Assembly: GCF_010093065.1 (NCBI RefSeq)
Contig: NZ_CP048113.1
Location: 7,396,001 to 7,460,000 of the forward strand
DNA: 64,000 bases
Direction of reading: 5' to 3'
DNA from: Chitinophaga agri
Lineage (GTDB): Bacteria; Bacteroidota; Bacteroidia; Chitinophagales; Chitinophagaceae
Below are positions 9,289 to 49,212 of the stretch, in pieces. The notes beneath the pieces are model-generated. The model saw only the letters and a list, made by a program, of their open reading frames with translations. It had not been told where the DNA came from and did not search any database. A program made the position numbers and the translations under genes. Position 1 is the first letter of the stretch. Every line of letters starts with the position of its first letter.

Positions 9289-9299
9289 AATCTATACAC

Positions 9300-29742: not shown

Positions 29743-30614
29743 ACATTACTGAAAATCAACTGATCGCCTGGTCACGGCCAGTTAGCGACTCCGAAGACGC
29801 GATGTGTCAGAGGGCCATTACACAAATCACTGAAGCATTGCGGGCAAAATTCGGCACCAAAGTATCTATATTCCTGCAAGGCTCTTACCGCAACAATACC
29901 AACGTCCGTAAAAACAGTGACGTGGATATCGTGATGCGCTTCGATGATGCATTTTATTCCGATCTTGTTAGGCTAAACGCAGCAGATGCCGCGATTTACA
30001 ACGCAAGGCATACAGACTATGGTTATAATTTCACGCAACTGAAGAACGATACAGAGCAGGCGCTACGCATCGTTTTTGGCGATGATGTCAAACGTAAAAA
30101 CAAATGTATTGAAGTAAGGGGTAACACTTACCGTGTAACAGCAGACGTGATCCCCTGTTTTACTTTAAGACGACCAGCAAACCTTGAAAGAATTGAAGCA
30201 GAAGGTATCAAATTCTATAGCGAAACCAATCAGGAAATCATCAGCTTTCCCAACCAGCATTACGAAAACGGCACGTCCAAGACTAATAACACCTACCGTT
30301 TATATAAAAGAATGGTTCGCATCCTAAAGGTGATCAACAATCGCCTTATTGATGATAATAAAATATCAGACAAACTGGCCTCGTCATTTTTCATTGAGTG
30401 TCTGGTGTACAATGTTCCTGATCATTATTTTATCAATGGCAATTACACCCAGACCCTACGCAACGTGATTAGCAAGATATATGAAGACATGCAAGCCAAC
30501 GCCAACTACAAAGAAGTTAGCTGCTTGCTATGGCTTTTTGATAGCCGATCACCAAGAACTCATAAAGATGCTTTGGACTTCATGCAGCACTGCTGGAATT
30601 TCGTAGGCTATTGA
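29739..30614 (+). CDS. CBASS CD-NTase (cyclic-oligonucleotide synthase)
   Basis: The 291-residue protein has the nucleotidyltransferase motif QGSYRNNTNVRKNSDVDIVM: GS at 48-49, metal-binding Asp61 and Asp63, and the third acidic residue Asp136 in TADVIPCF. The C-terminal helical part resembles other CD-NTases. The sequence is nearest in style to clade E (CdnE), whose product in studied cases is a pyrimidine-containing cyclic dinucleotide; I cannot fix the product by eye. No Cap2/Cap3 (E1/E2-JAB) or HORMA-TRIP13 gene is nearby, so this is a minimal type I CBASS. The 3' end overlaps the convergent gene at 30608 by seven bases. Confidence 0.92.
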   Translation: MNITENQLIAWSRPVSDSEDAMCQRAITQITEALRAKFGTKVSIFLQGSYRNNTNVRKNSDVDIVMRFDDAFYSDLVRLNAADAAIYNARHTDYGYNFTQLKNDTEQALRIVFGDDVKRKNKCIEVRGNTYRVTADVIPCFTLRRPANLERIEAEGIKFYSETNQEIISFPNQHYENGTSKTNNTYRLYKRMVRILKVINNRLIDDNKISDKLASSFFIECLVYNVPDHYFINGNYTQTLRNVISKIYEDMQANANYKEVSCLLWLFDSRSPRTHKDALDFMQHCWNFVGY

Positions 30615-32422
30615 TCGGTTTTTCCCTCAATAAATAACCGCGCTTCTTCCTTGATCCTGGTGACCGTTGGTGAAGGAATTTTAACAGGCATAGTAATGAT
30701 GTACTTTGCTACATTCTTTGCTTCAACATGCCTGTTCATGCGCTGAAGCAGCTTCATTTGTTCATACCTCGGTCCGAACTTTGAAGGGAGGTAATACGAA
30801 AGATACCGGAATCTATTAAGCGCGTTAGCATAGTCGCCTTCTTCAGCATAACAATTCGCGAGTTGCAGACTGTTCTGATACCCTCTATAATAACAGTGAC
30901 TATCACTGAAGCATTGTTTTGCGCGGGGCAACTCGCCATATTCCAACAGCACCATACCCATACGCGTTAATGCTTTTCCGTCTCTGGATAAATTGATGCT
31001 GACATCCCTTTCCAATGCCGATAGTTCTGCTGGCGATAAGTTATGCATGTTTTCAGCTATGGTCAGATTTGCTATCGCGCAAACCTGGCTATAATTCTTC
31101 ACACCGCAAAATAGCACCAGGGCAGATATGACTACAAGAATAGGATACCTCAGTCTTGCATCAGATCTCAGGAAGATACTTGAATCAGCGTCATAGCTGC
31201 CCTTGAGCACAAACAGCACCAGAAGCATCAAAAGCGGAGTACAGTGAAAACTATAAAATGTAAATCCTGAAATCAAAATAGCTGCAACCGTTATCTTCAG
31301 CGTCCAGGCCAGCCTTTCCCCAGGATGGCCATTAGAAGACCGGAAGAAAATAAATAAGGAGCCTGCCAAAAGTAGCATTCGCAAAATTCCAACTTCGCAA
31401 AGCAGCTGTACATATTCATTGAACGCATTGATCGTCTCCCCGGCAGAAAGAAAATAAGCGGTTGGAACTTTATGATGTGTCTGAAAATATTCAGCCTGCC
31501 ATTGTGGATACCAGTAACTAAATGTGCCTGGTCCGGTACCCAGGAGAGGACGATCCTTAATGTGCTGCCAGCACACTTCCCAAATGAGCATTCTTCCTTC
31601 AGCCGACTGGTATTTTAGATGATAAAGCGAATGAATTGCCCACAAACCAAATCCAATTATGATGATCCCTATAAAAGCGGTGAGTGCTTTGTGTCTCATT
31701 ACCCATACCCAGGCAGCCCTTCCGTATGCGCTCAGTCCCATGAGTCCATTGATCACCATCAAAGTCAGAATTGAAGTGCGGGAAACGGTGATGGCAAGCA
31801 ATCCTAAAATCAGCAGTGTAATCAGAAGATATCCGCCGATGGATACCCATTTTCCAAACCGATGCCCGGCTGGGACTATCACACAATAAACGATGATAGG
31901 GAAAGTAGCCACCAGAAAAACAGATAGTGCGGCAGAGTTGTCAAAATAGCCTGTTATTGCCAGCGATAACGGTATACTTCCATGATCAGCAAATACCTGT
32001 AGGTAGGCTTTCCCAATCTCCACCGCCGCAGAGACAATGATGAAATATAGAAAGTATTTGATCAGGCGGCCTTCCACATGGAAAAGAAAAATGTACCCAG
32101 CCAGAGCAGCGCAATACAAATTGTACAGGTGCTCGTTACCTGAATATAATATTGGTGAATCATAATAAGACAGCAACAAAAAGAAAACGATTACCACTAT
32201 GTAGCAGATGCGGAACAGGCTAAAGTCTTCCTCATCTACCACGCTCCAGATCAGGAAATTAAGAAATACGCCACTACACACAGCAAATAGTGGATAATGT
32301 GCAGACTGGTCCAGTTCCAGATTTGTCGTGTACGGATAAGCTGTGAGGTAGTAACCAAACAGGCAACAACAGCAGATCAGGCCCAAGTATTTATATAGCC
32401 AGTTGAGAATCTTAGTTACCAT
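30608..32422 (-). CDS. O-antigen-ligase-like membrane protein with C-terminal TPRs
   Basis: The 604-residue protein has about ten or eleven membrane helices in the first 430 residues. It contains a Wzy_C-type periplasmic loop: WQHIKDRPLLGTGPGTFSY, then ETINAFNEYVQLLCEVG. The C-terminal 150 residues form TPR-like repeats (LLEYGELPRAKQCFSDSHCYYRGYQNSL, YAEEGDYANALNRFRYLSYY). Such proteins usually join glycan chains, but no glycosyltransferase genes are nearby. It is last in the operon with TolC, RND and peptide genes, two bases from tolC. A role in modifying an exported product is possible. The ATG at 32420-32422 is preferred over a TTG two codons earlier. Confidence 0.82.
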   Translation of the reverse strand: MVTKILNWLYKYLGLICCCCLFGYYLTAYPYTTNLELDQSAHYPLFAVCSGVFLNFLIWSVVDEEDFSLFRICYIVVIVFFLLLSYYDSPILYSGNEHLYNLYCAALAGYIFLFHVEGRLIKYFLYFIIVSAAVEIGKAYLQVFADHGSIPLSLAITGYFDNSAALSVFLVATFPIIVYCVIVPAGHRFGKWVSIGGYLLITLLILGLLAITVSRTSILTLMVINGLMGLSAYGRAAWVWVMRHKALTAFIGIIIIGFGLWAIHSLYHLKYQSAEGRMLIWEVCWQHIKDRPLLGTGPGTFSYWYPQWQAEYFQTHHKVPTAYFLSAGETINAFNEYVQLLCEVGILRMLLLAGSLFIFFRSSNGHPGERLAWTLKITVAAILISGFTFYSFHCTPLLMLLVLFVLKGSYDADSSIFLRSDARLRYPILVVISALVLFCGVKNYSQVCAIANLTIAENMHNLSPAELSALERDVSINLSRDGKALTRMGMVLLEYGELPRAKQCFSDSHCYYRGYQNSLQLANCYAEEGDYANALNRFRYLSYYLPSKFGPRYEQMKLLQRMNRHVEAKNVAKYIITMPVKIPSPTVTRIKEEARLFIEGKTDQ

Positions 32423-32424
32423 GA

Positions 32425-33888
32425 TCAATCATTCGTTTCAGCAATAGCTTTTCCAATAACCGGATCAAAGCCCGTCAGCTTACGGAATCCAAAATGACCC
32501 TTCCAGTATTCCCGCAACGCAGCAGTATATTTTTTTCTGGCTGCGTCTCGTTGAGCCTGCGCGATCGACAATTCAGTCACCGTATACTTGCCCGCCTGAT
32601 AATTAGTCAGGGCAAATCCATATCGATTTTCTGCAACTTTTTGCACCTTCTGTCCCTGGAGTACATTATTCTGTAAGAGCACCAGGCTTTCGACAAGTGT
32701 GGTTATTTGTTGAGCAAGCGTGCTTTCATCAAGCATGTTTTGGTATTGCTGGAGCTTAAGGTTCGCTTTCGCAGTGCTGATTTTTGCGTTACGGCGGCCC
32801 CAGTCTACCATTGGGATGTCAAACTCGACACCTACTGTGGTCTGCGATTTCAAATCTCCGTATGCACCGGCAAACCGTAGATCACTGTTATTATATCCCA
32901 TTGTGGCCGCCACATTCACCCCGTATTTTTCCGCCTTCGACCTGGCGAGTTCACCTTGCGCCTCCAACTGCTTTCTTTCAAAGGCAATGTATTCAGGCCG
33001 GTTTTTTTTGGCAAATGCCAGTGCCTGCGCAGCGTCCGGATAATAAACGGTAGCCAGTTCCGGCATCAGCACCTCAAAATCTTCAGCCGCTGTAATTCCC
33101 GCGAAAACCTTCAGGTCCAGCCTCGCTATTTTGAGTTGATATTCCGCAGTCTTCAAAGTTTGTTCGGCCTCCAGCACCTGCAATTCAAGTTGCGTCAGCT
33201 TGTCCTGGTTGGTTGTACCAAGGGCGATGCGTTTAGTTTCGACATCATAATTTGCCTGGTAGTCCGATACGTTTTGCCGGGATACTGTAATGTCGTTCTG
33301 CGCCTCAAGAACATTAAAGTAAAGGTCTGTGGCTTTTAGCCTTATCTCTTCCATTTCTACAGAAAAAGCCTTTTTTGCTTCAGCGAAACGCAGGGGTTCG
33401 ATCTTCCTCGCCCAGCGCATAGCATTAAAGCCTCCTAGCGGCTGATTTAGGGCAAGAAATATAGGTGTAGCATTATACTGCTTGAAATTGGTAATATAGT
33501 CGTCAAATCGGCTCAAATTCGTGTTTAACGAGATTTGCCCGCCTGTGGCAGTAATGGCCTGGCTCAGGCTGAATCCTGCGGTGCTGAAATTCTGCTTAAC
33601 CGGTATGAAAAGGATCTTGCCATCAGGCTGGGTAATGGGTGCATAAGATTTATTATACATCGGTACTGCGCCGCTAAAGCTGATCTGAGGTCGCCGGTCA
33701 CTTTTATAGGTTTGAAATACATTGTTCGCAATCTCCTTTTGTGTTTCAGCCAATCTGGAGTGTATCGAATTGCTGGCCGCAATGCTCAGTACCTCTTCCA
33801 GCGTTAGCTTTTTTTGTGCAAAGATGGCAGGTCGGTAGAGTAGCAATGTTGTCATTAGGAACCACAACACTATATAAATCTGTCTCAT
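32425..33888 (-). CDS. TolC-family outer-membrane efflux protein
   Basis: The ATG at 33888 gives 487 residues with a clean signal peptide (MRQIYIVLWFLMTTLLLYRPAIFA). An upstream in-frame TTG would overlap the RND gene by 89 bases and add a non-signal leader. The mature protein has the repeated TolC helices (LTLEEVLSIAASNSIHSRLAE near the start, then two long coiled coils) and ends with a C-terminal TVTELSIAQAQRDAARKKYTAAL helix. It lies four bases after the RND pump gene, so pump, adaptor and channel are encoded together. Confidence 0.9.
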   Translation of the reverse strand: MRQIYIVLWFLMTTLLLYRPAIFAQKKLTLEEVLSIAASNSIHSRLAETQKEIANNVFQTYKSDRRPQISFSGAVPMYNKSYAPITQPDGKILFIPVKQNFSTAGFSLSQAITATGGQISLNTNLSRFDDYITNFKQYNATPIFLALNQPLGGFNAMRWARKIEPLRFAEAKKAFSVEMEEIRLKATDLYFNVLEAQNDITVSRQNVSDYQANYDVETKRIALGTTNQDKLTQLELQVLEAEQTLKTAEYQLKIARLDLKVFAGITAAEDFEVLMPELATVYYPDAAQALAFAKKNRPEYIAFERKQLEAQGELARSKAEKYGVNVAATMGYNNSDLRFAGAYGDLKSQTTVGVEFDIPMVDWGRRNAKISTAKANLKLQQYQNMLDESTLAQQITTLVESLVLLQNNVLQGQKVQKVAENRYGFALTNYQAGKYTVTELSIAQAQRDAARKKYTAALREYWKGHFGFRKLTGFDPVIGKAIAETND

Positions 33889-33892
33889 GTCT

Positions 33893-36800
33893 TTAGATTT
33901 TTCCAGTCCATTTTTGAATGTACCAATAGGCCAGTGGGATGAACCAGGTGGTGAAAAACGTACCGATCGTAAGGCCACCAATGATTACAATAGCCATCGG
34001 TCGCTGCAAGTCGTTGCCGATCCCGCCAATAAAAAGGATAGGCAGGAGTGCGATACTCGTAGTGAGTGACACCATCAACAGGGGTTTAAGGCAGATTTCA
34101 CCTGCTTCATGTATCATCTGGTGCAAAAGCGTTTCATCATATTCACGTCCTGCTTTTCTGTATTGGTCGGCAAGTTTGTTCAGCGTTTCAATTTTGAGCA
34201 GGGGATCATCAACGATGAGTCCCAACACCACGACAAAGCCTATGGCCGACATCACGTTGAAAGTCCCCCCGGTAATCAACAACAGCAGGCAAGCACCCGC
34301 AACGCCGAGCGGAATGGTGAGCATGACGATCACGGGTTGTACAAAGCTCTCAAACTGGATCGCCAGGACTGTGTACAACATCACCAGGACAATCAGGAAG
34401 ATGAGGGACAATTGTCGCATTAACTGCCGGTTTTCAAAATACTTCCCCGTAAAATCGACATCGTATCCAAGGCTTCTGGCTTCAGCAGTAATTTCATTCA
34501 AGATGGCTTTGATATCAGGTTGTTCAGATAACGCGATGGATCGGTAGGTGCCGTCTTTGTCTGCACTGATGGCAGAAAATTGCAAGACCGGTTCAAAACG
34601 AATGAACTTTCGTATGGGATAGGCGATCCCCTCGCTGTTTCTGACAACCGCGTCCAGCTTTTCTTCAACCGAGCCGCTTGCTTCGGTCACCAAAACACGA
34701 GTTTTATCACCTGTGGCATCCACCGCACCCGCCTCAGCACTTCCAAACAACACCTGTAATTGCTGATCTATCTCGGCCCGGTTGATTTGATACCGGTTCA
34801 TTGCCTCCATATCCAATACGCCACGCATAGCCGGTTCGCGCATCATCGATGGCTCTGGAGCATATTGAACGCGATTCACTTTAAGCCAGTCCGTCAGAAT
34901 ATCAAGATTTTGTGCTGAGCCTCCTTTAACCAACGGTTTGAATTTAACCCTGACATAAGGCTCATCATTTACGAACAACTGTGTAAACGCGTTCGGAGCA
35001 TCGAGAATATTAAAGGTGCATTTAGGATACCTGACCAACTGCTGTTTCACCATCCGGTCAGCCAGTAGCTTTTCCTTTTCAGAGGCGCATTCATAATAAA
35101 CGTTTGCCTGATAGATGGTCGTTCCGTCCTGCTGAAAAATATATTGTGTGGCACCCACATCACTTTCTGAAACTGCAACCACGGGCGATAGCTTTGCAAT
35201 CAGCGCCAAGGAGCGGGCCTTGTTTTCCTGCAAATCAAGCGGCTCGTTCCAACTGATCTTGATCAGACTTTCTTTTTTTTCGATAGCCGGTAGGCTTTCA
35301 AACGGAATGAAAAAGGCCAGCCCAACACCCAAGGCGATTACAAGTAGTGTAATCGCAAAGAACAGCTTACGTTTCAATAAGACAAACGAAATCATGCTGT
35401 GGTACCGGTTCCGTACAAAAGTGTAAAATACAGTATCCTGCTTCAACCGCTCTGGCGGAGACTTCAGCAAAAGTTTATAAAGCACGGGTGTCAATACGAA
35501 TGCAACCAATAAAGAGACAAACAGCGATATGGTCAGTGCTATACTTTGGTCCATCACCAGCGCTCCGGAAAGTCCGTTGAGTATCACGAGCGGAGCATAG
35601 ACCACCACCGTGGTCAATACCTGGCTGATCACGGGTACCGCCATTTCATTTGTACCCCTAATTGCGCTGTCAGTTACTGAAAGCCCGGCAATGCGCTTGC
35701 GCGTAATCTCACCGATCACGACAATGGAATTGTCTATCAGCATACCAATGCCCAGCGCAAGACCGGACAGGGAAATGATGTTGAACGAAAGGCCAAACAG
35801 TTGAAAGAAGATAAAGGTGATCAACAGCGATATCGGAATGCTGATACTCATGAGCACAGGTGATGCCCAGTTACCGAGAAATAGAAACAGTAAACCGATG
35901 GTCAGCGCTCCACCGAGTATAATATCTTGCTTTACATTGTCTATACCAGCATCAAGCAAAAAGCTCTGGTCCTGAGAAATGTTGAAACGTGCCTGGGGAT
36001 ACTGTTTCTGAAAAGCACTGACCAAACTTCTGATCATTGGCAGCAATTCATTCATGCGGCTTTTGGCTTGTGCCTGAACAGTAACTACTACACCAGGCTT
36101 CCCATTGTATAGATGATAACCGGTAAGCTGGTCCGTGTCCATTTCTACGCTGGCAATTTCTTTCAGTTGCACGGGCTGGCCTGATAAGCCTTTGACTGAG
36201 ACATTACCTAAATCGCTCACGGTACGGACCTGGTTTTCCAGTCTGATGAAATACTGGTATTGCCCGTCTTTGAGGTTCAGACCGCCAATTTCCATATTTG
36301 AAAGTCTCACGGCCTCCAGCAAGGCAGATGTAGTTATACCAAAGGCATTCATCCGGTCCCTGTCAGGCTTCAATATGGCAACAGTACCTCGTTGTCCATT
36401 CATGTCCACTACCGAGACACCGGGCAGCTGCTCCAGCCGCCGCTTCAAAACTTTTTCTGTGAGATCCGACACTTCCTGATAGGTTGCATCTGAAACAGGC
36501 ACCACCTGGATACGGACAACAGGTATATCGCTGGTATTGATGCGGACTACCTGCGGACGGGGCATATCAGGCGGTAGCCGCCCAAGCAGTCTATCCATCT
36601 TTTCATTTACCTCGATATATGCCAGCGACATGTTCGCACGGTAATCGAAGTCCAAATACACAGTTCCCAGGTGGTTAGATGCTTCTGAATGTAAGCCGGT
36701 TAAATCATCTACCAAAGACAGTTGTTCCCGGATAGGCTTCAGCACCTGATCTTCAACCTGTCTTGCGGAAGCATTAGGGAAATTGACCTTAACGATCATT

Positions 36801-36925
36801 CGTGGTACATCAATAGCGGGCAACAGGGATACAGGCACCTGAAAAATGAGTACCAGGCCAAATGCCATCAAAGCGGCGAATAAAACCAATATGGCAACTG
36901 GACGGTTGATGAAATATCCGATCAT
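33893..36925 (-). CDS. RND-family inner-membrane efflux transporter
   Basis: The 1010-residue protein shows standard RND architecture: an N-terminal helix (MIGYFINRPVAILVLFAALMAFGLVLI), a large porter loop, helices 2-6 around 335-480, a second porter loop and helices 8-12. Helix 4 has GIGMLIDNSIVVIGE, one Asp followed by Asn where AcrB has Asp-Asp, as in many HAE-type homologues. Helix 10 has the VLGLIVDDPLLKIETL motif. The TKVNFP/AIDVPRM start of the porter domain fits drug/peptide rather than heavy-metal pumps, but this cannot be settled by eye. It overlaps the adaptor gene by four bases. Confidence 0.92.
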   Translation of the reverse strand: MIGYFINRPVAILVLFAALMAFGLVLIFQVPVSLLPAIDVPRMIVKVNFPNASARQVEDQVLKPIREQLSLVDDLTGLHSEASNHLGTVYLDFDYRANMSLAYIEVNEKMDRLLGRLPPDMPRPQVVRINTSDIPVVRIQVVPVSDATYQEVSDLTEKVLKRRLEQLPGVSVVDMNGQRGTVAILKPDRDRMNAFGITTSALLEAVRLSNMEIGGLNLKDGQYQYFIRLENQVRTVSDLGNVSVKGLSGQPVQLKEIASVEMDTDQLTGYHLYNGKPGVVVTVQAQAKSRMNELLPMIRSLVSAFQKQYPQARFNISQDQSFLLDAGIDNVKQDIILGGALTIGLLFLFLGNWASPVLMSISIPISLLITFIFFQLFGLSFNIISLSGLALGIGMLIDNSIVVIGEITRKRIAGLSVTDSAIRGTNEMAVPVISQVLTTVVVYAPLVILNGLSGALVMDQSIALTISLFVSLLVAFVLTPVLYKLLLKSPPERLKQDTVFYTFVRNRYHSMISFVLLKRKLFFAITLLVIALGVGLAFFIPFESLPAIEKKESLIKISWNEPLDLQENKARSLALIAKLSPVVAVSESDVGATQYIFQQDGTTIYQANVYYECASEKEKLLADRMVKQQLVRYPKCTFNILDAPNAFTQLFVNDEPYVRVKFKPLVKGGSAQNLDILTDWLKVNRVQYAPEPSMMREPAMRGVLDMEAMNRYQINRAEIDQQLQVLFGSAEAGAVDATGDKTRVLVTEASGSVEEKLDAVVRNSEGIAYPIRKFIRFEPVLQFSAISADKDGTYRSIALSEQPDIKAILNEITAEARSLGYDVDFTGKYFENRQLMRQLSLIFLIVLVMLYTVLAIQFESFVQPVIVMLTIPLGVAGACLLLLITGGTFNVMSAIGFVVVLGLIVDDPLLKIETLNKLADQYRKAGREYDETLLHQMIHEAGEICLKPLLMVSLTTSIALLPILFIGGIGNDLQRPMAIVIIGGLTIGTFFTTWFIPLAYWYIQKWTGKI

Positions 36926-38028
36926 TGGCTTTCTTCTTTCACGGCAGATTCGTGTACCAATTGGAGATTGTTGGTGATGATCACTTTTTCTCCGGCTTTT
37001 AGCCCCCCGGTGATCTCGACCTCCTTACCGTTATCATGTCCGATGCTGACATCATTCCAAATGGCCTTTCCGTTAGCATAGGTAAATACGACAGGCTTTT
37101 CATTACGCTTTACCAATGCCGCTTTAGGAATTACAATGCCTTCAGCTACCCGCGCATTTACCAGAGCAGAGCAGTGCATGCCGGGGAAAAGCCTTGCGTC
37201 CGCAGGAGACTGCATGATCTTTATCCGCAGCGTGACCATGCCATGCGCATTCACATAGGGATCAATATTTTCAACAACTCCCTTTATCATCGCATTCCGT
37301 TCAGATACCGGAAGCAGATCACAGACAAGGCCGGGTTTCAAAATTTTAAAGTCTGTTTCCATTACTTCAGTTTCCACATAGAGGTCATGGTCTGTATAAA
37401 GTGTAAACAGTCTTTCTCCGGCACTTAAATGCGAACCCTGCTGCACGAGAACACCACTCAGTACGCCGTTGAAAGGTGCTTTTATGATCGCATGATTCAA
37501 CATTTCCCTCGTCTCCCTGATATCCTGTTCAGCGACAGCCAGCCCGGTTGCAATGCGCAATTTCTTCCGGATGGAGTCCTGTTCTTCCAGTGGCCTGCCT
37601 TTTAGCAATTCCTGATAGCCAAGGAGCTGGCTTTCGTATTCCCTGCTGGCATTGAATCGCGAAAGTTCGGCACGTTCCAGCTTCATTTTGATCAATGCCT
37701 GATCCAGGACCGCAATCGTATTTCCTGCACCGTAACGCCTGCCGTTAGCACCTGCAAAGACAGCTATCTTTCCTGCTGTTTCCGAAATGAAAATTTGTTC
37801 GCGGGCGGCCCTGATTTTGCCTTCTGTCTTCAGATGATACTCAAAAGGTTGCCGTTTCGCTTCCGCCGTTTTCACGGTGGTTATTGCATCGGAAACCTGA
37901 ACCAGTGACGTATCCTGATCTGTAGAACTATCACGGGCGCTTCTTGCCTGGTTGCAGGCATGCAAACCAACGGTGGCAAGAATGAAACCCGCCAGATAAC
38001 TTACAGCCGAATGTTTAAATGGGAACAT
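36922..38028 (-). CDS. RND periplasmic adaptor lipoprotein
   Basis: The 368-residue HlyD/AcrA-type protein starts MFPFKHSAVSYLAGFILATV and has the lipobox GLHAC. The lipoyl halves (EQIFISETAGKIAVFAG and HAIIKAPFNGVLSGVLVQQG), the helical hairpin between them, the beta-barrel (LYVETEVMETDFKILKPG) and the membrane-proximal domain (VIPKAALVKRNEKPVVFTYANG) are all recognisable. It would connect the RND pump to the TolC-like protein, both encoded directly downstream. The ATG at 38028 is preferred over a TTG three codons upstream. Confidence 0.9.
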   Translation of the reverse strand: MFPFKHSAVSYLAGFILATVGLHACNQARSARDSSTDQDTSLVQVSDAITTVKTAEAKRQPFEYHLKTEGKIRAAREQIFISETAGKIAVFAGANGRRYGAGNTIAVLDQALIKMKLERAELSRFNASREYESQLLGYQELLKGRPLEEQDSIRKKLRIATGLAVAEQDIRETREMLNHAIIKAPFNGVLSGVLVQQGSHLSAGERLFTLYTDHDLYVETEVMETDFKILKPGLVCDLLPVSERNAMIKGVVENIDPYVNAHGMVTLRIKIMQSPADARLFPGMHCSALVNARVAEGIVIPKAALVKRNEKPVVFTYANGKAIWNDVSIGHDNGKEVEITGGLKAGEKVIITNNLQLVHESAVKEESQ

Positions 38029-38033
38029 TTGAA

Positions 38034-38516
38034 TCAATTCACTTCTTTATGTAATGCTTCCAGCTGCGCGTCCACTTTATCTGGTTCTACTATCTGTGGC
38101 TTATTCATTTTGCCGTCATTGTAGGTTACCAGCGTTACAAATCCATGGGTAAATCCCTCACGGATATACTGCTTTGCGGTATCCTGTAGAATGTTAGACG
38201 AGGAGAGTTCCGCTTCTGTATACTCGCTGGTCATTACACGCCTGGACTGCTCACTGGTCAGGATAAAGGTGATCCGATCATTATTCAGGTGCGCTTTGGA
38301 AAATTTGATGCACTTCTCTACGCACTTTCCGCAACCTCCAACAGGAATCAACAGGTAGTAATATTTTCCCGGCTTCGCAATCGTATCTTTCGTGAGTAAT
38401 TCAAAGCGGCGTTGTGTTTCATCCTTAGAAATCTGCCTGTCTGCATTTCCACAGGCCATAGCAAAGCAGGCCATGCTCACCAGCAAGGCCGTATTGAATA
38501 GGGTATTGAGCTTCAT
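38034..38516 (-). CDS. Thioredoxin-like lipoprotein with CGKC motif
   Basis: The 160-residue protein has a lipoprotein signal ending CFAMAC (Cys22). A strand-turn-helix YYYLLIPVGGCGKCVEKCIKF carries CGKC where thioredoxins have CxxC, plus another Cys three residues later. The rest has alternating strands and helices compatible with a small thioredoxin fold, though a cis-Pro loop is not evident. It is likely a periplasmic thiol-disulfide or metal-binding protein. It overlaps the propeller lipoprotein gene by one base and lies five bases before the adaptor gene. A second thiol protein (TlpA-like) is encoded at the head of the operon. Confidence 0.65.
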   Translation of the reverse strand: MKLNTLFNTALLVSMACFAMACGNADRQISKDETQRRFELLTKDTIAKPGKYYYLLIPVGGCGKCVEKCIKFSKAHLNNDRITFILTSEQSRRVMTSEYTEAELSSSNILQDTAKQYIREGFTHGFVTLVTYNDGKMNKPQIVEPDKVDAQLEALHKEVN

Positions 38517-39694: not shown

Positions 39695-39731
39695 ATTGAG
39701 TATTTATCAGGGGAGTTACAACAGGGGAAAA

Positions 39732-39769
39732 AATTATAGCAGGCTAGACTTGCTCCGCCTGCTATAATT
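39732..39769 (-). terminator. Minus-strand terminator/attenuator after the peptide gene
   Basis: AATTATAGCAGGC (39732-39744) and GCCTGCTATAATT (39757-39769) form a perfect 13-pair stem with a 12-base loop. Read on the minus strand it is followed by TTTTTT. It lies 22 bases after the peptide gene and before the propeller gene, so it would make the peptide transcript far more abundant than the export genes while some readthrough continues. Confidence 0.8.
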
Positions 39770-39791
39770 AAAAATGTATTCTGCACATTAC

Positions 39792-39962
39792 TTAGTGGCT
39801 GCAAGGGCAGCTTGAAGCGGTGCTGTAAGCGCAGATGCCTCCCGGAGGCCATAAACATTTTTGACTACCGTCATCGATCATAGCTTGTGCGCTTTGGGAG
39901 TACGCAATACCTCCGATAGCAGCTGCAACAACAGCCGCGAAAACTAACAGTTTTCTTTTCAT
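39792..39962 (-). CDS. Small exported cysteine-rich precursor peptide
   Basis: The 56-residue product has a strong Sec signal: MKRKLL, a hydrophobic Ala/Val core, then SQSAQA with an A-Q-A signal-peptidase I site. The mature part would be about 29 residues beginning MIDDGSQ, with four cysteines (36, 44, 52, 54) in KCLWPPGGICAY and SSCPCSH. I recognise no family; in size and neighbours it resembles NVEALA-type Bacteroidota peptides but lacks that motif. In-frame codons upstream to 40019 give no better start. It is encoded within an operon of thiol-disulfide proteins and an RND-TolC pump and is followed by a strong hairpin. Toxin, signal or structural peptide are all possible. Confidence 0.75.
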   Translation of the reverse strand: MKRKLLVFAAVVAAAIGGIAYSQSAQAMIDDGSQKCLWPPGGICAYSTASSCPCSH

Positions 39963-40062
39963 AAAAGGTGTGAGTTGAATGGAGTTAAAAAATAGATACC
40001 GTTCCTCTATAGTGTACACGCAATTTAATTTTTTTCGTGGACACGAAAGCGTTAATAATAAG

Positions 40063-41466
40063 TTAACGACCTATTTTTTTTCGCAGATAATCAATTATTT
40101 GTGATGGTGGGAGCGCAGTGTTTTCAGCTACTTTTCCGTCTGGTCCAATGATTACATAATGCGGAAAGCCTTTGATTGAGTAAGCCGAAATGAGCTTATT
40201 TTTTTCAGATAAATCTGAGTATAAGTTCACACCAACTGGAGAAAACTTTTTCACTGCGGTCAGCCATTCATCGTGTTTACTTTCTGCACACACATTGACC
40301 AATAGTAGATCATCAGATAGTTTATCAAGGCCCAATTCCTTTTTCAGTGCCATATCACGGCGGCAGGGTATGCACCAGGTAGCCCAGAAATCCAGATAGA
40401 TCCACTTGCCTTTGAAATCGGAAAGTGATACACGTCCGCCATCCAAGTCTGAGAAAGCAATATCTGGTACTTCGCTGCCGGATTTGAGAACAGCGGCTCC
40501 GTTTAATTCATTTGCCTTTTCATTCAGCATTCCCTGTACCAATACTGCATTGGCCATATCTTTCACCTTGGGTACAATCTGCTGCCAGAAGACAGTATAT
40601 TCGGCCAAGGCTGAATGATTGCCTATAGTTGGTATCATAAACGAATACCAAAATGCCAGGAAGTTTTCCAGCGTATTTTCTGTGTAGCCATCAGTCTGCA
40701 TCGCCTTCAGTGCTTTACCCAAGCGAGCGGTATAGCTTTCCTTATCATTATCTGCGCTCTTTTTAAAGTAGTAGAATGATAGATACATATAAAAATCAGC
40801 CTGGTAGTTCAGGTCAGCACTATCTGGCAGTTTCATTGGTATGCGCAATGTGCTGTCCAGTTTCAACAATGCACTGAAGTCCAGTCCTTTTTTGTTGGCA
40901 GCAATGAATTTAGCCGTTGTCGCCTGCATAGCGATCAATGTAATTTCCCGGCTATAGAAGTCTGACGGCAGTCGATGCTTCCATTGTTGCAGGTAAGCTG
41001 TTTCGACACGCTGAAAACTATCGACAAGTGTAAATATCCGTTTTTCAGACATCGTTTCCGGTAGCTGAAAAGTTCTGGAAGATGCAGACATATAGCCTAA
41101 TTGCTTTGCCTTCGTCTCATAGTACAAAGCGGGACCAGTGAAGACTGGGCCGGATTCATCAAACTCAATCGTGAGCGAATCTTCCGGACGGATATATAAC
41201 GTAAATGGTTTGAGCAAGTCTACATATAGCGTAGCCATGACCGGGTGCTCCAGTTGCAGGCTCATTGTTTCCCTGGACGTTACCGTAAGCGGTTCGCTTT
41301 TCAGTTGATTTGCAGGTAGGAAAGGCGCATAAAACAACTTCACAACTTTAGGGCCGGAACTGGATATAAAAGTGATCTGCTGTCCGTGCAAAGCTGCGCC
41401 CGGCAGTAAAACAGCAGGGAGAGTATAAACACAAAATCCTATAAGCCAGAAAATTAATTTTGTCAT
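40063..41466 (-). CDS. TlpA-like periplasmic thiol-disulfide oxidoreductase
   Basis: The 467-residue protein has a signal peptide (MTKLIFWLIGFCVYTLPAVLLPGAALHG). A long N-terminal beta/helical domain resembles the DUF4369-type domains often attached to Bacteroidota TlpA proteins. The C-terminal thioredoxin domain starts near SEVPDIAFSDLDGGRVSLSDFKGKW and has WATWCIPCRRD with the redox pair Cys365/Cys368 and the cis-Pro region KGFPHYVII. It is the first gene of the minus-strand operon, about 100 bases before the four-cysteine peptide, so oxidative folding of that peptide is a natural suggestion. Confidence 0.88.
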   Translation of the reverse strand: MTKLIFWLIGFCVYTLPAVLLPGAALHGQQITFISSSGPKVVKLFYAPFLPANQLKSEPLTVTSRETMSLQLEHPVMATLYVDLLKPFTLYIRPEDSLTIEFDESGPVFTGPALYYETKAKQLGYMSASSRTFQLPETMSEKRIFTLVDSFQRVETAYLQQWKHRLPSDFYSREITLIAMQATTAKFIAANKKGLDFSALLKLDSTLRIPMKLPDSADLNYQADFYMYLSFYYFKKSADNDKESYTARLGKALKAMQTDGYTENTLENFLAFWYSFMIPTIGNHSALAEYTVFWQQIVPKVKDMANAVLVQGMLNEKANELNGAAVLKSGSEVPDIAFSDLDGGRVSLSDFKGKWIYLDFWATWCIPCRRDMALKKELGLDKLSDDLLLVNVCAESKHDEWLTAVKKFSPVGVNLYSDLSEKNKLISAYSIKGFPHYVIIGPDGKVAENTALPPSQIIDYLRKKIGR

Positions 41467-41535
41467 TATAAGCGTTTTAATCTAATATTAACGAATAAAT
41501 CCCAAATAAGAACCGCTCACATTCTGCATTTTTTT

Positions 41536-44511
41536 ATGACGTTTCTTACCCCTGTCAGACTGCTGCTGATTTACCTTGTATTTGCCATGATGGGCTTATT
41601 GGCATTGCCCTATATGCGGATCGATTTATTGCCCGGACAAATGGGCAAAAGTCTTACAGTGAACTATCAAACGGCAAATACATCTCCTGAATTGAATGAA
41701 AGCCGTTACACGAGCATGTTGGAGAATGGCCTTTCACAGTTAACGCAGATCAGGCACATGGAATCTGTTTCTACCGAAAGTGGCGGTGAGGTGGTGATTA
41801 GGTTTGACGCGGCGGCAGATTTGAAAGAGAAGCGTTTTCAAATGGCAATGCTGATCCGTCAGCTGTATCCTAAGCTGACAGTAGGAATCAGCTATCCAAC
41901 AATTGCAAACACCACGACCGTAAGCAAAATGGAAAGTGAAGCCATTAGGGTATACATGATCAATGGTCCGGGAGATAGAAGCAAACTCCAAAAGCAGTTC
42001 AGCCCATTACTCCATAAATTTTTTCTTGCGATCAAGGACATTAGGGAACTTGAAATTATTGGTGCTCCAAAGCAGGAAATTTCAGTGACTTACAACAGGT
42101 CAAAATGTGCTGCATTCCACGTAACCAGCACGGAAATCAGACAAGCGCTGTCTGAGCAGTATCGATTGACGTTTCCCTGCATGATACGCGATGATCATGG
42201 ACAGAAGCTTTTCATTACTATTGGCGAAAATAGCCCTACGCTACAAAGCCTTTCGGACGCTATGGTTGTAAATGAAAGCGGACAGGCGATAAAACTCGCT
42301 GCACTGGCAGAAATTTCACAGCACGAAACACTGATCACCGATTACTACCGGATCAATGGTCAAAATGCGCTAAACGTAAACCTTTACCCAAAGCCCGGAT
42401 CGAATGCCCTGGCACTGAGTAAAAAGCTGGACTTAGCAGCGAATGAAATCAACAAGCAGCTGCCTCCAGGTTACAGCCTTAAACTGGTTTATGACAAAAC
42501 GGCCTTCCTGCACGCAGAACTTCAAACCAACTACAAACGAAGTGCATTAGCCATTGGCATTCTTCTCGCATTCATCCTGGTAGCCTACCAAAGTATAAGA
42601 TCGACCATCGTAATACTCAGCAGCCTGGTTGTAAATATCTGCATCGGGATATTGTTGATCTGTTTATTCCAGGTCAATATCAATCTTTATACCGTAGGCG
42701 GTGTCACGCTTGCGTTTGGCCTGATCATCGACAATGCAATTGTGAATCTGGATTATTACCAGCGCCACCGCAACCTCAAAATTCTTCCGGCCATGCTGGG
42801 CGCAAACCTTTGTATCATCACCGGGCTATCCATAGTTTACATGCTTCCAGATCAGGAAAGTAAAGATTACAATGACTTTTGCGCCATGATCATACTTTCG
42901 CTTTGTGCTTCGCTACTGGTGGCAGTAGGATTTACTCCAGCTGTCTCGTCATTGCTTCAGAACCATAAGCTCAATTTTAGTAGTCATAAGATACGTAGAC
43001 GAATGTGGCGTTTGTACACCATTTACCAAAAATGCCTACAGACCCTCGCACCAGGGAAATATGCGATATCCGCAATATTCTTTGTATGTCTTGGAATTGG
43101 CTGCTATTTATTTCAAACTCATATCGGCGAAAGGTCCGGAATACGCAATCCGGATCAAACCAAATTATATCTGACCTGCAACCTGGCTGATGGTCATACA
43201 GCCCTTCAGATGAACGAACTCTTTCAGCCTATGGAAGATTATCTGAAACAACAAAAGGGGATTGATAAGTTCATCACCTATATCCAAAGCGGGCAATATG
43301 GCGGGATAGAAATATTCATCAAAAAGGATCATGTACACGGTACGTACACCGCCCAGCTTTATGATGCACTGGTATCCAGGACAAACGCGATTGAGGGCGT
43401 AAAATGGCAGCTGTGGGGATTGGGTAAGTTTCATAGTACCAGCAATCACCAGCAAGCCGCCAGCTACAGTGTATTGCTCAGAGGATATCACTATCAGCAG
43501 CTGGAAGATCAGGCCCATCGGCTCCGGCATCATCTGCAACAAAATAGCCGTGTGGTCCAGGTGAATGTGAATGCGCAGTACAGTATGCGCGACCGGGAAA
43601 TGACGAGCAGTTCATTTTCTACCAATCCGGCCAATAGCCGACTGGTATACAATGCACTGCATGACTACCAGGCAGAAATCCAGCCTTTATTATTGGTACA
43701 GAACAATGGTGAATATAGTCCGGTATATGTCAGATCAGGCGGCTGGCAGGAACGCAGCCAGTTCGAGTTCCTTCATGACCCAGCTACACAGGATAGTATG
43801 CCCTTCAGCCTCAATCAGTTTGGACAGTTGGCCCGCGAAAAAGTCAGCAACAAAATATATAAGAAAGACAGGCAATACCTGCGCGTAGTCAGCTATAACT
43901 ACCAGGGCGATGATCAATTTGGTAGCCAGCACCAGGCGCTTGCCATCCGTCAGTTCAATGTTGTAATGCCTGCTGGCTTCAGTGCTTCAAAGTATGCTTT
44001 CAATTTCAAGGAAGAAAATAAGGCGCTACCAGTATGGCCGCTTTGGTTACTGGTCGCGCTGAATTTCGTGATTACCTGTATGGTTTTTGAAAACCTGAAG
44101 CAACCACTGCTGCTGATCAGTCTCATACCACTATCTTTTACCGGGCTGTTATATGTGTTTGCGCTTACAGATCACTTTGTTGATCAGGGAGCATACGCAG
44201 CTTTTCTGATGCTTGGGTGCCTTGCTGTAAATGCAGGCATTTTTCTGATCAATGATTACAATCATAGTTCTAAGCGTTATTTCACTGACCCATACCAACG
44301 TCTCGCCAGGGCTTTCTTTGCAAGAAGCAGACCCATCGTGCTTACGATCATCAGCTGTTGTTGCGCGCTGTTGCCCTTCCTGTTTGACGGCGAGGACGTG
44401 ATCTTTTGGTATTCCTTTTCTGTCGGTACACTTTCAGGCTTGCTTTTCAGCTTCCTCACGCTTTTCATTTACCTGCCACTGATGCTGGCACCAAGGTATT
44501 CAAAATCATAA
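41536..44511 (+). CDS. Divergent RND-superfamily transporter
   Basis: The 991-residue protein has RND architecture: an N-terminal helix (LLLIYLVFAMMGLLALPYM), periplasmic loop, a helix cluster at about 335-500 with GGVTLAFGLIIDNAIVNLDYY as helix 4, a second loop, and C-terminal helices from about residue 835. It is clearly diverged from the pump at 33893-36925; the helix-10 region LMLGCLAVNAGIFLINDY has Asn in place of the usual charged residue. It is transcribed away from the peptide operon with a 69-base shared gap and has no adaptor or TolC of its own. It may pair with the first RND protein or use its adaptor and channel. Confidence 0.88.
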   Translation: MTFLTPVRLLLIYLVFAMMGLLALPYMRIDLLPGQMGKSLTVNYQTANTSPELNESRYTSMLENGLSQLTQIRHMESVSTESGGEVVIRFDAAADLKEKRFQMAMLIRQLYPKLTVGISYPTIANTTTVSKMESEAIRVYMINGPGDRSKLQKQFSPLLHKFFLAIKDIRELEIIGAPKQEISVTYNRSKCAAFHVTSTEIRQALSEQYRLTFPCMIRDDHGQKLFITIGENSPTLQSLSDAMVVNESGQAIKLAALAEISQHETLITDYYRINGQNALNVNLYPKPGSNALALSKKLDLAANEINKQLPPGYSLKLVYDKTAFLHAELQTNYKRSALAIGILLAFILVAYQSIRSTIVILSSLVVNICIGILLICLFQVNINLYTVGGVTLAFGLIIDNAIVNLDYYQRHRNLKILPAMLGANLCIITGLSIVYMLPDQESKDYNDFCAMIILSLCASLLVAVGFTPAVSSLLQNHKLNFSSHKIRRRMWRLYTIYQKCLQTLAPGKYAISAIFFVCLGIGCYLFQTHIGERSGIRNPDQTKLYLTCNLADGHTALQMNELFQPMEDYLKQQKGIDKFITYIQSGQYGGIEIFIKKDHVHGTYTAQLYDALVSRTNAIEGVKWQLWGLGKFHSTSNHQQAASYSVLLRGYHYQQLEDQAHRLRHHLQQNSRVVQVNVNAQYSMRDREMTSSSFSTNPANSRLVYNALHDYQAEIQPLLLVQNNGEYSPVYVRSGGWQERSQFEFLHDPATQDSMPFSLNQFGQLAREKVSNKIYKKDRQYLRVVSYNYQGDDQFGSQHQALAIRQFNVVMPAGFSASKYAFNFKEENKALPVWPLWLLVALNFVITCMVFENLKQPLLLISLIPLSFTGLLYVFALTDHFVDQGAYAAFLMLGCLAVNAGIFLINDYNHSSKRYFTDPYQRLARAFFARSRPIVLTIISCCCALLPFLFDGEDVIFWYSFSVGTLSGLLFSFLTLFIYLPLMLAPRYSKS

Positions 44512-44521
44512 CTAAAGTAGC

Positions 44522-45556
44522 ATGCGCTTAATTATTTTAGCAGCCGGTCTATTTGGTCTTGGATTGACCGTATACTTTGTAAAGGACCGCTTTAAGACCA
44601 ACCGCACGATCCTCGGACAGCAAAACGCGATCTGGTCTGAAAGTATTTATTTCAGGGGCCATCAACCCACGACCAAAGTACCTTTAGGTGACCAGTACAT
44701 CCAGGACTATGCTGGTGTACTCAAAGCGAACAATATCAAGTATGCTTACTTCTACGCAGGGCCTATAGGTAAGGACGGCCATCTTCCAGCATACGTTTTC
44801 TCGGACACAGCCAGAGCTTCTATCAGAAAATTCAGACAACTTTACCCGGAGCTGATCATACTTCCCTGGTGCGGTGGGATACAGCACAAAACGATTTATC
44901 TTGAAGACAGCACCTGGAGAATTACCGCCATTGGTGACCTCAAAAGGATGATCGATACTCTTGGTGTAACCGGCGTTCACTTAGACTTTGAGTATTTTAT
45001 GCCGCAATATCAGCACTTAGATTCGGCTGTAGCACCGGGTAATGCCGGAGAAATGGCAGCTTACCCAGGCTACGTTAATCAATTTCACCGGCAATTGAGA
45101 GATAGTCTCCCCCAAGCCTTTATCAGTTCTGTCGTTACGTCAACCTGCCCGGCATCAATACACTGGAAGCGCAAAACCAGTTTGGATGAGTTGCGGGGCT
45201 TACTGCCGTATGTAGATCAGATTAGTTTTCTGTTTTACGATATGAATATACACGATAGCATTGCTTTCCGGCAATGTGCCATTCAGCAGGTGAAAGATCT
45301 CCAGGAACTGAAGAAAACCCATCCGGTGCAGATGTTAATTGCGATAGCTACCTTTCAGAATACGCCGGAATACCGTGAGTTTCACGACATGAAGGTAGAG
45401 AACATTATCAATACACTCAGTACCCTCAGAGATGTAGAAGCGATGATCAAACCAGACAGAGGAATAATAGATGGTATTTCGATCTACTGCGGCTGGGAAA
45501 CAAATATCAACGAGTGGGAAGATATTGCAAACAACTGGACACAGTATCATGAATAG
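44522..45556 (+). CDS. GH18-like TIM-barrel protein, membrane-anchored
   Basis: The 344-residue protein starts with a hydrophobic anchor (MRLIILAAGLFGLGLTVYFV). A TIM-barrel-like series follows: NIKYAYFYAGPIG, LIILPWCGG and GVTGVHLDFEYF. The last resembles the GH18 DxxDxDxE strand: the final Asp155-x-Glu157 is present but the earlier Asp residues are missing, so catalysis is uncertain. VDQISFLFYDMN and IDGISIYCGWE also fit late GH18 strands. It begins ten bases after the RND gene and overlaps the next gene by eight bases. Confidence 0.65.
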   Translation: MRLIILAAGLFGLGLTVYFVKDRFKTNRTILGQQNAIWSESIYFRGHQPTTKVPLGDQYIQDYAGVLKANNIKYAYFYAGPIGKDGHLPAYVFSDTARASIRKFRQLYPELIILPWCGGIQHKTIYLEDSTWRITAIGDLKRMIDTLGVTGVHLDFEYFMPQYQHLDSAVAPGNAGEMAAYPGYVNQFHRQLRDSLPQAFISSVVTSTCPASIHWKRKTSLDELRGLLPYVDQISFLFYDMNIHDSIAFRQCAIQQVKDLQELKKTHPVQMLIAIATFQNTPEYREFHDMKVENIINTLSTLRDVEAMIKPDRGIIDGISIYCGWETNINEWEDIANNWTQYHE

Positions 45557-47144
45557 AATATTACAAGCATTAGTACTGGTCACCAGCCTTTCTGCAGGTT
45601 GTCAGCCCAGGAATACCCAATCAGATATAGCTGGAAGTAGCCTTTACAAAGAGACTGACCAAAATCTGTTGAAACTCCCGGACGGCAGCATCGTGTACAT
45701 AAATCATTCTGGGAATGCTTACGCGCTGAACCAGGTAAAAGATGGGCAGTCGATGCCGATAAGCACGTTTAGCCACCCAGTGTTTTTTCCATTTTTGTAC
45801 AATGGAGAAACCGCATGGCTGACCGACTCATGCGGCAACGAACTGTATACTTCAAGTAAAGCAAATTTTAACCGCATATCGGGCAATACCATCGACCGCA
45901 TATACACCAGCAATACCGGCAGGTACCTGATTTATAAAAAGACAGATGAGGGGGTTTTCCTTTTTGACCAGCAGACGCAATGCGAAACCTTACTGGAACA
46001 ACTCACAAATGAGTTTACGCATCTGGCTTTTGACCCAACTGACAGTATTGCCAGTTACAAGGATGGCGATGATCTGTTTATCTTGCACCTCCCATCTGCA
46101 ATAACAGGAAAATTAGCTGTTCCATTATCCGGCGAAAAATTCAATCCTTGTCCGTTTGCAGGAAAAATCTATTTTGCTTGTCGGGATACTGCTCAGTTTA
46201 CGGCCATCTATAGCTGCGACCTTTCAAGCTCCGAAATAAGTAAGGTTCACCAAACCTCCAACGAACTGCGTTTGCCAACTGTTACAGACACTAGCCTGTA
46301 TTTTATTGAGATCATCAATAGCCAATACCTCTTACGCCGCAAAAGCCTGACCTCCGGAAAGGTTGATCAGATCACGGACAGGGGCGTAGTTTATACCTAC
46401 ATACCAGGAGAAAAACAGGTTTATTATAGTTATGCTGATATTAACAGTACTAAGAGCCTTTATAGTTATCGGTTGGATACACGAACAAGTGTTCCCATAG
46501 ACAGCATCACCTTGTTTCCAGATCTTGAAGCAAAACCGTATGTAATAACTCCAGGGGATACTGTTCATTATCAAATCTCCAGTAACAAGGCAATTAGTCG
46601 GCCAGGGACAATTCTCTTTATTCATCCGGGGTTGCATGGCGATTATTCGCCAAGGTTTGAGCCTTTGTTGTATCATCTGGCTAACGCGGGTTATCTGATT
46701 ATTTGTCCCAACTATCCTGGTTCAAAAGGTTATGGATATGATTATGAACATCAAAACCCTGAAGCAGCTGTAGAAATGCTGTCCAAAATGGCGCAGCAGA
46801 TTCGCAGTCAGACCAGCAAACCTTTGTATTTGCTGACCTCCAGTTCGGGCAATATACTGGCAGAGCGGCTGCTTAATATGGAGAAATGCCAATTTACTGC
46901 TGCTGTTTCCCTGTTCGGCATTCCAGGAGCAGCACCTACCCCCAAAGTACCGGTGCTGTATCTTTTAGGTGAGAATGATCAGCAAATCAATTATGGCCGC
47001 CGTAAGGAACAGCTGAGCACTGCGGCAAAAAAGCATCCAATAAGTATTTACAGCTATCCCTGTGAGGGCCACTGGTTCAGGGATAACGCAAGCCTTCAAG
47101 ATGCAAGTGAAAGAATCGTTAACCATTTCAAGCGGCAAGATTAG
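45549..47144 (+). CDS. S9-like serine hydrolase/peptidase lipoprotein
   Basis: The ATG at 45549 gives 531 residues with lipoprotein signal MNRILQALVLVTSLSAGC (Cys18). Residues about 40-350 look like a beta-propeller (LLKLPDGSIVYINHSGNAY, SYKDGDDLFILHLPS). The C-terminal alpha/beta-hydrolase domain has FIHPGLHGDYSPRF, NYPGSKGYGYDYEH, the nucleophile elbow TSSSG (Ser432) and acid and base residues Asp477 (GENDQQ) and His508 (CEGHWF). This is the prolyl-oligopeptidase (S9) layout with an unusual elbow in place of GxSxG. It would act outside the inner membrane, and it could trim or degrade the cysteine-rich peptide (inference). Confidence 0.85.
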   Translation: MNRILQALVLVTSLSAGCQPRNTQSDIAGSSLYKETDQNLLKLPDGSIVYINHSGNAYALNQVKDGQSMPISTFSHPVFFPFLYNGETAWLTDSCGNELYTSSKANFNRISGNTIDRIYTSNTGRYLIYKKTDEGVFLFDQQTQCETLLEQLTNEFTHLAFDPTDSIASYKDGDDLFILHLPSAITGKLAVPLSGEKFNPCPFAGKIYFACRDTAQFTAIYSCDLSSSEISKVHQTSNELRLPTVTDTSLYFIEIINSQYLLRRKSLTSGKVDQITDRGVVYTYIPGEKQVYYSYADINSTKSLYSYRLDTRTSVPIDSITLFPDLEAKPYVITPGDTVHYQISSNKAISRPGTILFIHPGLHGDYSPRFEPLLYHLANAGYLIICPNYPGSKGYGYDYEHQNPEAAVEMLSKMAQQIRSQTSKPLYLLTSSSGNILAERLLNMEKCQFTAAVSLFGIPGAAPTPKVPVLYLLGENDQQINYGRRKEQLSTAAKKHPISIYSYPCEGHWFRDNASLQDASERIVNHFKRQD

Positions 47145-48806: not shown

Positions 48807-48855
48807 TGCAATTGCAATGTTATCACATGTAAATCAATTATTTGTTAGCGCGATG

Positions 48856-49161: not shown

Positions 49162-49212
49162 GATTGGCTGAGTATACAGAAAATACCTGCATGAGGACGA
49201 GAGTGCCAGCAT

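Follow-up and report, generated by a model that had tools for sequence, protein, structure and literature searches.

A candidate RND-pair secretion system for small cysteine-rich peptides in Chitinophaga agri and other Bacteroidota

A 64,000-nucleotide stretch of the Chitinophaga agri genome (contig NZ_CP048113.1, positions 7,396,001 to 7,460,000; hereafter the window), a genome assembled as a single contig of 7.97 Mb, carries a two-armed locus in which a small cysteine-rich peptide is encoded among two resistance-nodulation-division (RND) permeases, designated RND1 and RND2, a HlyD adaptor, a TolC-family channel, and thiol and propeller lipoproteins. We consider it probable that this locus encodes a system that secretes small disulfide-rich peptides in two steps, Sec export and periplasmic oxidation being followed by secretion through RND and TolC. 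Orthology of the whole locus, co-occurrence of the pump genes, and pairing of pump and peptide support this reading, and it is from them that we infer transport itself. Taken together, the pump pair and its cysteine-rich peptides look like an undescribed peptide secretion system: in the open-licence literature we found no published description of an RND-pair peptide system, and nothing on NVEALA, on DUF4221 with Bacteroidetes, or on a small secreted peptide with RND and TolC in Bacteroidetes.

The minus-strand arm is an operon of eight genes, in the order TlpA, peptide, DUF4221 propeller, CxxC lipoprotein (with a CGKC motif in the window), HlyD, RND1, TolC, and a Wzy_C protein with tetratricopeptide repeats (Wzy_C-TPR), and the divergent plus-strand arm carries RND2, GH18-like, and S9-like genes (Table 1). 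This eight-plus-three layout agrees with the first-pass annotation, and every gene was present where that annotation had placed it; only the starts of three were revised, namely, those of tolC (ATG 33888, 487 aa), the Wzy_C-TPR gene (ATG 32422, 604 aa), and the S9-like gene (most likely ATG 45549, 531 aa). Three of the seven operon junctions are overlaps of 1 to 4 bases and two are gaps of 2 to 4 bases; only the two junctions flanking the peptide gene measure about 100 bases. The peptide precursor begins with the leader MKRKLLVFAAVVAAAIGGIAYSQSAQA, which by pattern is of the Sec type and ends in an AQA site, and continues into a predicted 29-residue mature part with four cysteines. It has no double-glycine leader, and the operon has no peptidase ABC transporter; indeed, no ABC family was matched among the operon proteins scanned, the inner-membrane pump being RND. 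No Pfam or PADLOC family matched the peptide, and a single NCBIfam line was rejected at 13.5 versus 35 bits, far under the cut-off. Starting 23 bases past the peptide stop codon, a perfect 12-bp inverted repeat with a T run forms a hairpin of −20.5 kcal/mol (z −6.5), comparable to that at the Chitinophaga oryziterrae orthologue (−19.7, z −4.2). The window hairpin is missing from our terminator scan list because the 12-base gap between its perfect arms exceeds the loop limit of 8. With so strong a terminator-like hairpin behind its gene, the peptide could therefore be made in excess of the downstream genes.

To place the locus among relatives, 99 of them were searched with the CGKC lipoprotein; 17 matched, the own genome included, and the 20-kb surroundings of the matches were fetched (L-numbers label fetched loci; L031 and L105 are one C. 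oryziterrae locus). One full orthologous locus was obtained, that of C. oryziterrae, with identities of 38% for TlpA, 49% for DUF4221, 35% for CGKC, 49% for HlyD, 59% for RND1, 57% for TolC, 36% for Wzy_C, 46% for RND2, and 35% for S9. At the same place as in the window lies a peptide of 57 aa with 54% identity and all four cysteines kept; comparison of the codons gave 18 identical, 13 with synonymous differences, and 26 nonsynonymous. Thus, the peptide frame, on whose conservation the first-pass annotation had staked its proposal, is kept in this relative. Peptide relatives were sought in genomes and fetched loci only, and the 79 genomes of the genus contained just one clear relative (6.3e-14, in G012). 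In C. oryziterrae, RND2 is fused to a GH18-like part, and the window GH18-like protein is 52% identical to residues 1015 to 1330 of the 1332-aa L031 RND2 protein.

The two permeases travel together. Among 294 genomes of the family, RND1 was found in the own genome and five others (E ≤ 1e-150), those five at 45 to 52% identity and with scores no lower than 933 bits; below them, at 534 bits, came the own genome's distant copy. Five of these six genomes also have RND2 at E ≤ 1e-60, and in the sixth, that of Niastella populi, it was located close to RND1 with an E of 6.4e-60, so that all six possess both. When GTDB species genomes were scanned with the RND1 alignment, the list, limited to the best 80 of 174 relatives, yielded 79 loci: three weak ones in Treponema and 76 in Bacteroidota, hosted by Chitinophagaceae, Sphingobacteriaceae, Cyclobacteriaceae, Saprospiraceae, and others. 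With the window added, the Bacteroidota loci number 77, and in 66 of them a recognisable RND2 was present; among the remaining 11, a genome search showed RND2 truncated at the border of the fetched sequence in four, six lie on short or ending contigs, and the last is L113. In a tree of 84 RND rows, for which Algoriphagus was thinned and two Sphingobacterium RND2 carry a long-branch warning, 35 RND1 and 27 RND2 each fell on one side of a fully supported branch versus 22 others (19 from the own genome and the three Treponema). Moreover, RND1 and RND2 distances correlate (r 0.49 over 21 loci, with 6 of 2000 permutations as high).

Both proteins hold the ACR_tran domain over their full length (PF00873), as HAE-type RND permeases do. 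At the AcrB positions D407, D408, and K940, which we take to number the proton relay, RND1 reads D in 77/77, N in 77/77, and N in 50 or D in 27 (D/N/D in the window), and RND2 reads D in 63, N in 60, and N in 60 of 68 rows, each set counting two loci twice. Comparison RNDs keep D408 in only 11/22 and K940 in 12/22. Judged by sequence, the two are divergent RND permeases that form a stable pair and co-occur across Bacteroidota. HlyD accompanies them, and outside Algoriphagus it is usually joined by TolC, by Cys peptides, and by a propeller and a thiol lipoprotein.

Removal of two contig fragments (L170 and L174) from the 77 loci left 28 non-Algoriphagus and 47 Algoriphagus-group loci, one of the latter (L175) being a Cyclobacteriaceae metagenome-assembled genome. 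Cys peptides were called by a simple sequence pattern and judgement by eye, without a trained signal-peptide predictor. By eye, 27 of the 28 non-Algoriphagus loci contain one to four small Sec-type Cys open reading frames (ORFs) with a propeller-sized ORF downstream, at least one peptide being required to have such an ORF no more than 1300 bases behind it and HlyD and TolC being excluded as partner; two or more peptides are present in 11/28. An automatic rule, which could take HlyD as partner and counted a wrong ORF in L115, found the pairing at ≥3 Cys in 25/28 test loci versus 0/20 control RND loci and at ≥2 Cys in 25/28 versus 2/20, the controls being other RND regions of the own genome, its second copy of the locus (L030) not among them. 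The count of 27/28 is thus by eye and the control 0/20 automatic, and the Fisher value of 1e-10 overstates independence because some of the 28 loci are close relatives (L153/L156 and L116/L177). With these figures, the co-occurrence of pump and peptide on which the first-pass annotation depended is borne out, while its notion of a pump dedicated to one small peptide proved too narrow, since the pump pair stands beside many unrelated peptides.

The number of cysteines after residue 22 is even in 40 of 43 peptides, as would be expected if they form disulfides. Of 64 peptide ORFs, a set that includes a few likely false peptides, 30 have a terminator-like hairpin behind them, compared with 0.9% of shuffled sequences and 44 of 409 ORFs of propeller size. 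No core is conserved among the peptides of different loci, their mean column identity being 10%. Among 78 curated peptides from all loci, five matched CBM_14 and two CBM_1; remaining matches were no better than E 0.002, leaving 71 peptides without a better Pfam match. CBM_1 is the fungal-type cellulose-binding domain, and CBM modules of such types are known mainly from animals and fungi. Two tandem, Cys-rich, exported peptides, each with a CBM_1 domain (4.4e-11 and 1.1e-12), belong to the second, distant copy of the locus in the own genome (C1:6285980-6297338, that is, 1980-13338 of L030, C1:6284001-6304000), which consists of a DUF1573/thioredoxin-like gene, the two peptides, a DUF5128 propeller, a CxxC protein, HlyD, and RND2-like and RND1-like genes. 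Small exported peptides with the chitin-binding CBM_14 (Peritrophin-A) module were observed beside the pump pair in Chitinophaga solisilvae (L116:5646-7171) and C. varians (L177:6349-7176). The secreted peptides are probably extracellular effectors, and some carry modules that should bind chitin or cellulose. We also frame, as a tentative proposal in which we place less confidence than in the two-step route, a Bacteroidota system in which an RND pair, a propeller, and a thiol lipoprotein would export fast-changing, disulfide-knotted Sec peptides, including stand-alone chitin- or cellulose-binding modules, some of them glycosylated in the periplasm.

A thioredoxin domain with CxxC is assigned to the TlpA gene by PF00578 and its CIPC motif and to the CGKC lipoprotein by structure model alone. 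The latter has no Pfam match; its C22, C62, and C65 are invariant in an alignment of 29, and its model adopts a thioredoxin fold (pLDDT 88.6), whose best PDB matches are FetE and TlpA/ResA-like thioredoxin-type oxidoreductases at modest TM-scores of 0.4 to 0.5. The CxxC lipoprotein lies directly behind DUF4221 in 28 of 34 cases (L031 and L105 counted separately), and the DUF4221 propeller model matches the solved DUF4221 structure 3s9j (E 3.1e-25). Where the propeller is of the DUF5128 type, a DUF1573 or a weakly AhpC-like protein serves as the putative thiol partner in several loci. An iterated propeller profile had given a count of 69/76, which was discarded as the profile had drifted into HlyD proteins.

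In the mechanism that we propose, the Sec-type leader would export the precursor and cleavage would free the 29-residue peptide, which TlpA and the lipid-anchored CGKC thioredoxin would oxidise or proof-read in the periplasm and the propeller lipoprotein would hold. Capture from the periplasm would then fall to RND1 and RND2 working as one assembly, which may be a mixed trimer of the MdtBC kind, and the proton motive force would push the peptide through HlyD and TolC. Before export, the peptide may be modified in certain lineages by additional enzymes, the candidates being Wzy_C-TPR in the window and GT22, or LanC-like proteins together with glycosyltransferases, elsewhere. Of the chain drawn in the first-pass annotation, Sec export followed by oxidative folding and tripartite RND export, the frame and the pump-peptide pairing hold, while transport, oxidation, and modification are steps that we infer.

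Several observations weigh against secretion of the peptides by this pump. The evidence consists of sequence and comparison, and it is by deduction from these that we speak of transport, of disulfide state and glycosylation, and of a biological role; the 20 control loci come from one genome; and neither RND1 nor RND2 keeps the full AcrB proton relay. By a strict filter, candidate peptides with at least two Cys are present in 26/47 Algoriphagus-group loci (at least three Cys in 18/47) and absent from 21/47; three of these blanks (L122, L123, and L159) show a peptide in a looser scan, and 18/47 pump loci have no convincing local peptide in either scan. The peptide-less Algoriphagus loci retain HlyD-RND1, nearly all with RND2, and of 15 such genomes searched, only 8 gave a CxxC lipoprotein match anywhere, which in one case fell within the flank of the pump locus. 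No TolC label stands beside the Algoriphagus pumps, the TolC and Wzy labels coming from profiles partly seeded from the same loci. L164 lacks a peptide. Furthermore, an RND1 profile matched ten of 395 genomes of the phylum, the own genome included (E ≤ 1e-220), and among the seven loci retrieved from six of the ten, L243, L244, and L249 have Cys peptides and L245, L246, L247, and L248 have no convincing one (L248 ends at a contig end). Conversely, 15 Chitinophaga loci hold peptide, DUF4221, and CxxC lipoprotein without RND1, three of them with an ordinary RND pump nearby on the opposite strand, and CBM_1 or CBM_14 matches lie near a DUF1573/thioredoxin-like gene in L262 (7765-10023) and L264 (9981 onward), the 20 kb retrieved in each case bearing no RND label. 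Given peptide-less pumps and pump-less cassettes, the peptide-propeller-thiol unit may therefore be wider than the pump, and RND1/RND2 may be one exporter among those it uses.

Three further observations concern these loci. In L121 (8308-8844), an Algoriphagus locus, a DPBB protein that we take to be RlpA-like (PF03330, 2.9e-21) stands ahead of the pump operon. The RND1-less sibling cassettes L036, L038, L039, L042, L043, and L045 combine a Cys peptide, DUF4221, a CxxC lipoprotein, and a Wzy-like gene, to which L042 adds an outer-membrane barrel and an S26 signal peptidase. In L044 of the own genome (C1:6423501-6443500), a seemingly decayed DUF4221 gene, reduced to short frames (about 8990-10052), precedes an intact CxxC lipoprotein gene.

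The same pump-less cassettes and peptide-less Algoriphagus loci feed the strongest alternative, namely, that two independent modules have become neighbours: an envelope unit of peptide, propeller, and thiol protein, whose peptide leaves otherwise or stays in the envelope, and an RND1/RND2-HlyD-TolC pump that exports other cargo, such as a small molecule or lipid. Most known RND cargo consists of small molecules, which counts for this alternative. The movement of lipodepsipeptides by NFE-type RNDs also counts for it (PMC8277102). Against it, the peptide pair stands at 27 of 28 non-Algoriphagus pump loci versus none of the 20 controls by the automatic rule, and the association persists though the peptides change beyond recognition and holds in the distant pump lineages L243, L244, and the own L030. 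We regard independent modules as unlikely, albeit the foremost competitor of peptide secretion.

A different role for the peptide is that of a scaffold in a glycan pathway or one for ribosomally synthesized and post-translationally modified peptides, modified in the envelope by Wzy_C-TPR, GT22, or LanC-like and glycosyltransferase enzymes before the pump exports the glycopeptide or attaches it to the surface. The window Wzy_C-TPR protein, classed by its Wzy_C membership, is a candidate periplasmic glycan-transferring enzyme and might be a PglL-type O-oligosaccharyltransferase. Wzy_C also occurs above cut-off in L105, L155, and L246 (which carries a signal peptidase as well), with sub-threshold matches in L108 and the L178 fragment; a GT22 mannosyltransferase-like gene is found in L109, L110, and L152; and LanC-like and glycosyltransferase genes lie beside the peptide-propeller pair and pump in L059, L107, and L112, which are possible undescribed modified-peptide clusters, with a glycosyltransferase also in L106. 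The other non-Algoriphagus loci and all 49 Algoriphagus-group loci, however, lack such enzymes by the profiles used; modification is read from gene content; and no LanC-like cyclase was matched among the window genes scanned, LanB/LanM dehydratases not having been searched for. A pathway of this kind appears improbable to us. Least credible of all is a peptide that stays in the cell, where it would sense or regulate the pump or the redox state of the envelope: thiol proteins and the propeller do share its operon, but the peptides have no conserved core across loci and the CBM_1/CBM_14 modules point to extracellular targets.

The locus genes are listed in Table 1. The GH18 match falls under the Pfam cut-off (25.8 versus 29.6 bits), and the S9 match passes for the whole protein (24.8 versus 22.6 bits) with no single stretch passing. 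Adjoining the operon at 28720-30614 (+) is a defence pair of the cyclic-oligonucleotide-based anti-phage signalling (CBASS) type, comprising a patatin-like phospholipase effector and an oligonucleotide cyclase (PADLOC, 1.2e-106 and 4.5e-88). On the other side, genes at 47316-49569 (−), adjoining the S9-like gene, resemble an IS66-type transposase set.

Table 1. Features of the two-armed locus, in window coordinates
Feature	Position	Strand	Basis
Wzy_C (O-antigen-ligase-like) membrane protein with C-terminal TPRs	30608..32422	-	PF04932 1.8e-13
TolC-family outer-membrane channel	32425..33888	-	PF02321 7.1e-35; 57% identity to L031 gene
RND1 permease	33893..36925	-	PF00873 1e-154; own clade
HlyD/RND periplasmic adaptor	36922..38037	-	TIGR01730 3.8e-42, above cut-off
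CGKC lipoprotein, predicted thioredoxin fold	38034..38516	-	Structure model; no Pfam match
DUF4221 beta-propeller lipoprotein	38516..39694	-	PF13970 9.3e-18; structure model
Terminator-like hairpin 3' of peptide gene, then T run	39733..39768	-	12-bp perfect stem
56-aa peptide precursor with Sec-type signal; predicted mature part of 29 residues, 4 Cys	39792..39962	-	Sequence; orthologue L105:6903-7076
TlpA-like protein, CIPC active site, AhpC-TSA/thioredoxin domain	40063..41466	-	PF00578 8.1e-14
RND2 permease, divergent second pump protein	41536..44511	+	PF00873 8.8e-80; own clade; found with RND1
Membrane-anchored GH18-like protein	44522..45556	+	PF00704 1e-05, below cut-off
S9/alpha-beta-hydrolase-like lipoprotein	45549..47144	+	PF00326 1.7e-05, just above cut-off; L031 orthologue, 35%

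If peptide secretion by the RND pair is correct, the known means of ribosomal peptide secretion in Gram-negative bacteria would gain a proton-driven RND route. The presence of RND1/RND2 beside a propeller would also be a handle for finding many unclassified small disulfide peptides, and a purpose would be suggested for one group of Bacteroidota propeller lipoproteins (DUF4221 and DUF5128).

Several known systems share parts of this design. DUF6520 (PF20130) and NVEALA (PF14055) are small exported peptides of Bacteroidota; the locus peptides differ from both, with weak DUF6520 matches in only 2 of 78 and no NVEALA match among the 78 at E ≤ 0.05. MdtABC is a drug pump in which MdtA is the single adaptor gene. 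It is a heterotrimeric RND (PMC8277102). Like it, the locus has two different RND permeases and one adaptor gene. Unlike it, the RND1/RND2 proteins have diverged from MdtB and adjoin peptide genes. Bacteroidetocins are likewise four-Cys Bacteroidota peptides, and most bacteroidetocin operons include a thiol oxidoreductase; they have a double-glycine leader and a peptidase-containing ABC transporter (PMC6671954), whereas a Sec-type leader and an RND pump are present here. RND-family export of a secreted peptide product is also known from the NFE-type exporter of syringomycin and syringopeptin, whose cargo is a lipodepsipeptide rather than a ribosomal Sec-type peptide (PMC8277102). A precedent for the proposed route is MacAB-TolC, which exports the Sec-dependent, disulfide-bonded heat-stable enterotoxin STII (PMC8277102). 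Common to both would be a small Sec-dependent peptide, a periplasmic disulfide, and a tripartite pump loading from the periplasm, deduced here from the genes; by pattern, the cargo shares with STII a Sec-type leader and an even Cys number. MacB, however, is an ABC transporter (PMC8277102), and the present locus does not belong to the MacAB-TolC family: in place of MacB, the operon and its divergent arm supply an RND permease pair, with propeller and thiol lipoproteins in the operon. By analogy, the system would work as MacAB-TolC does with STII, on an RND engine.

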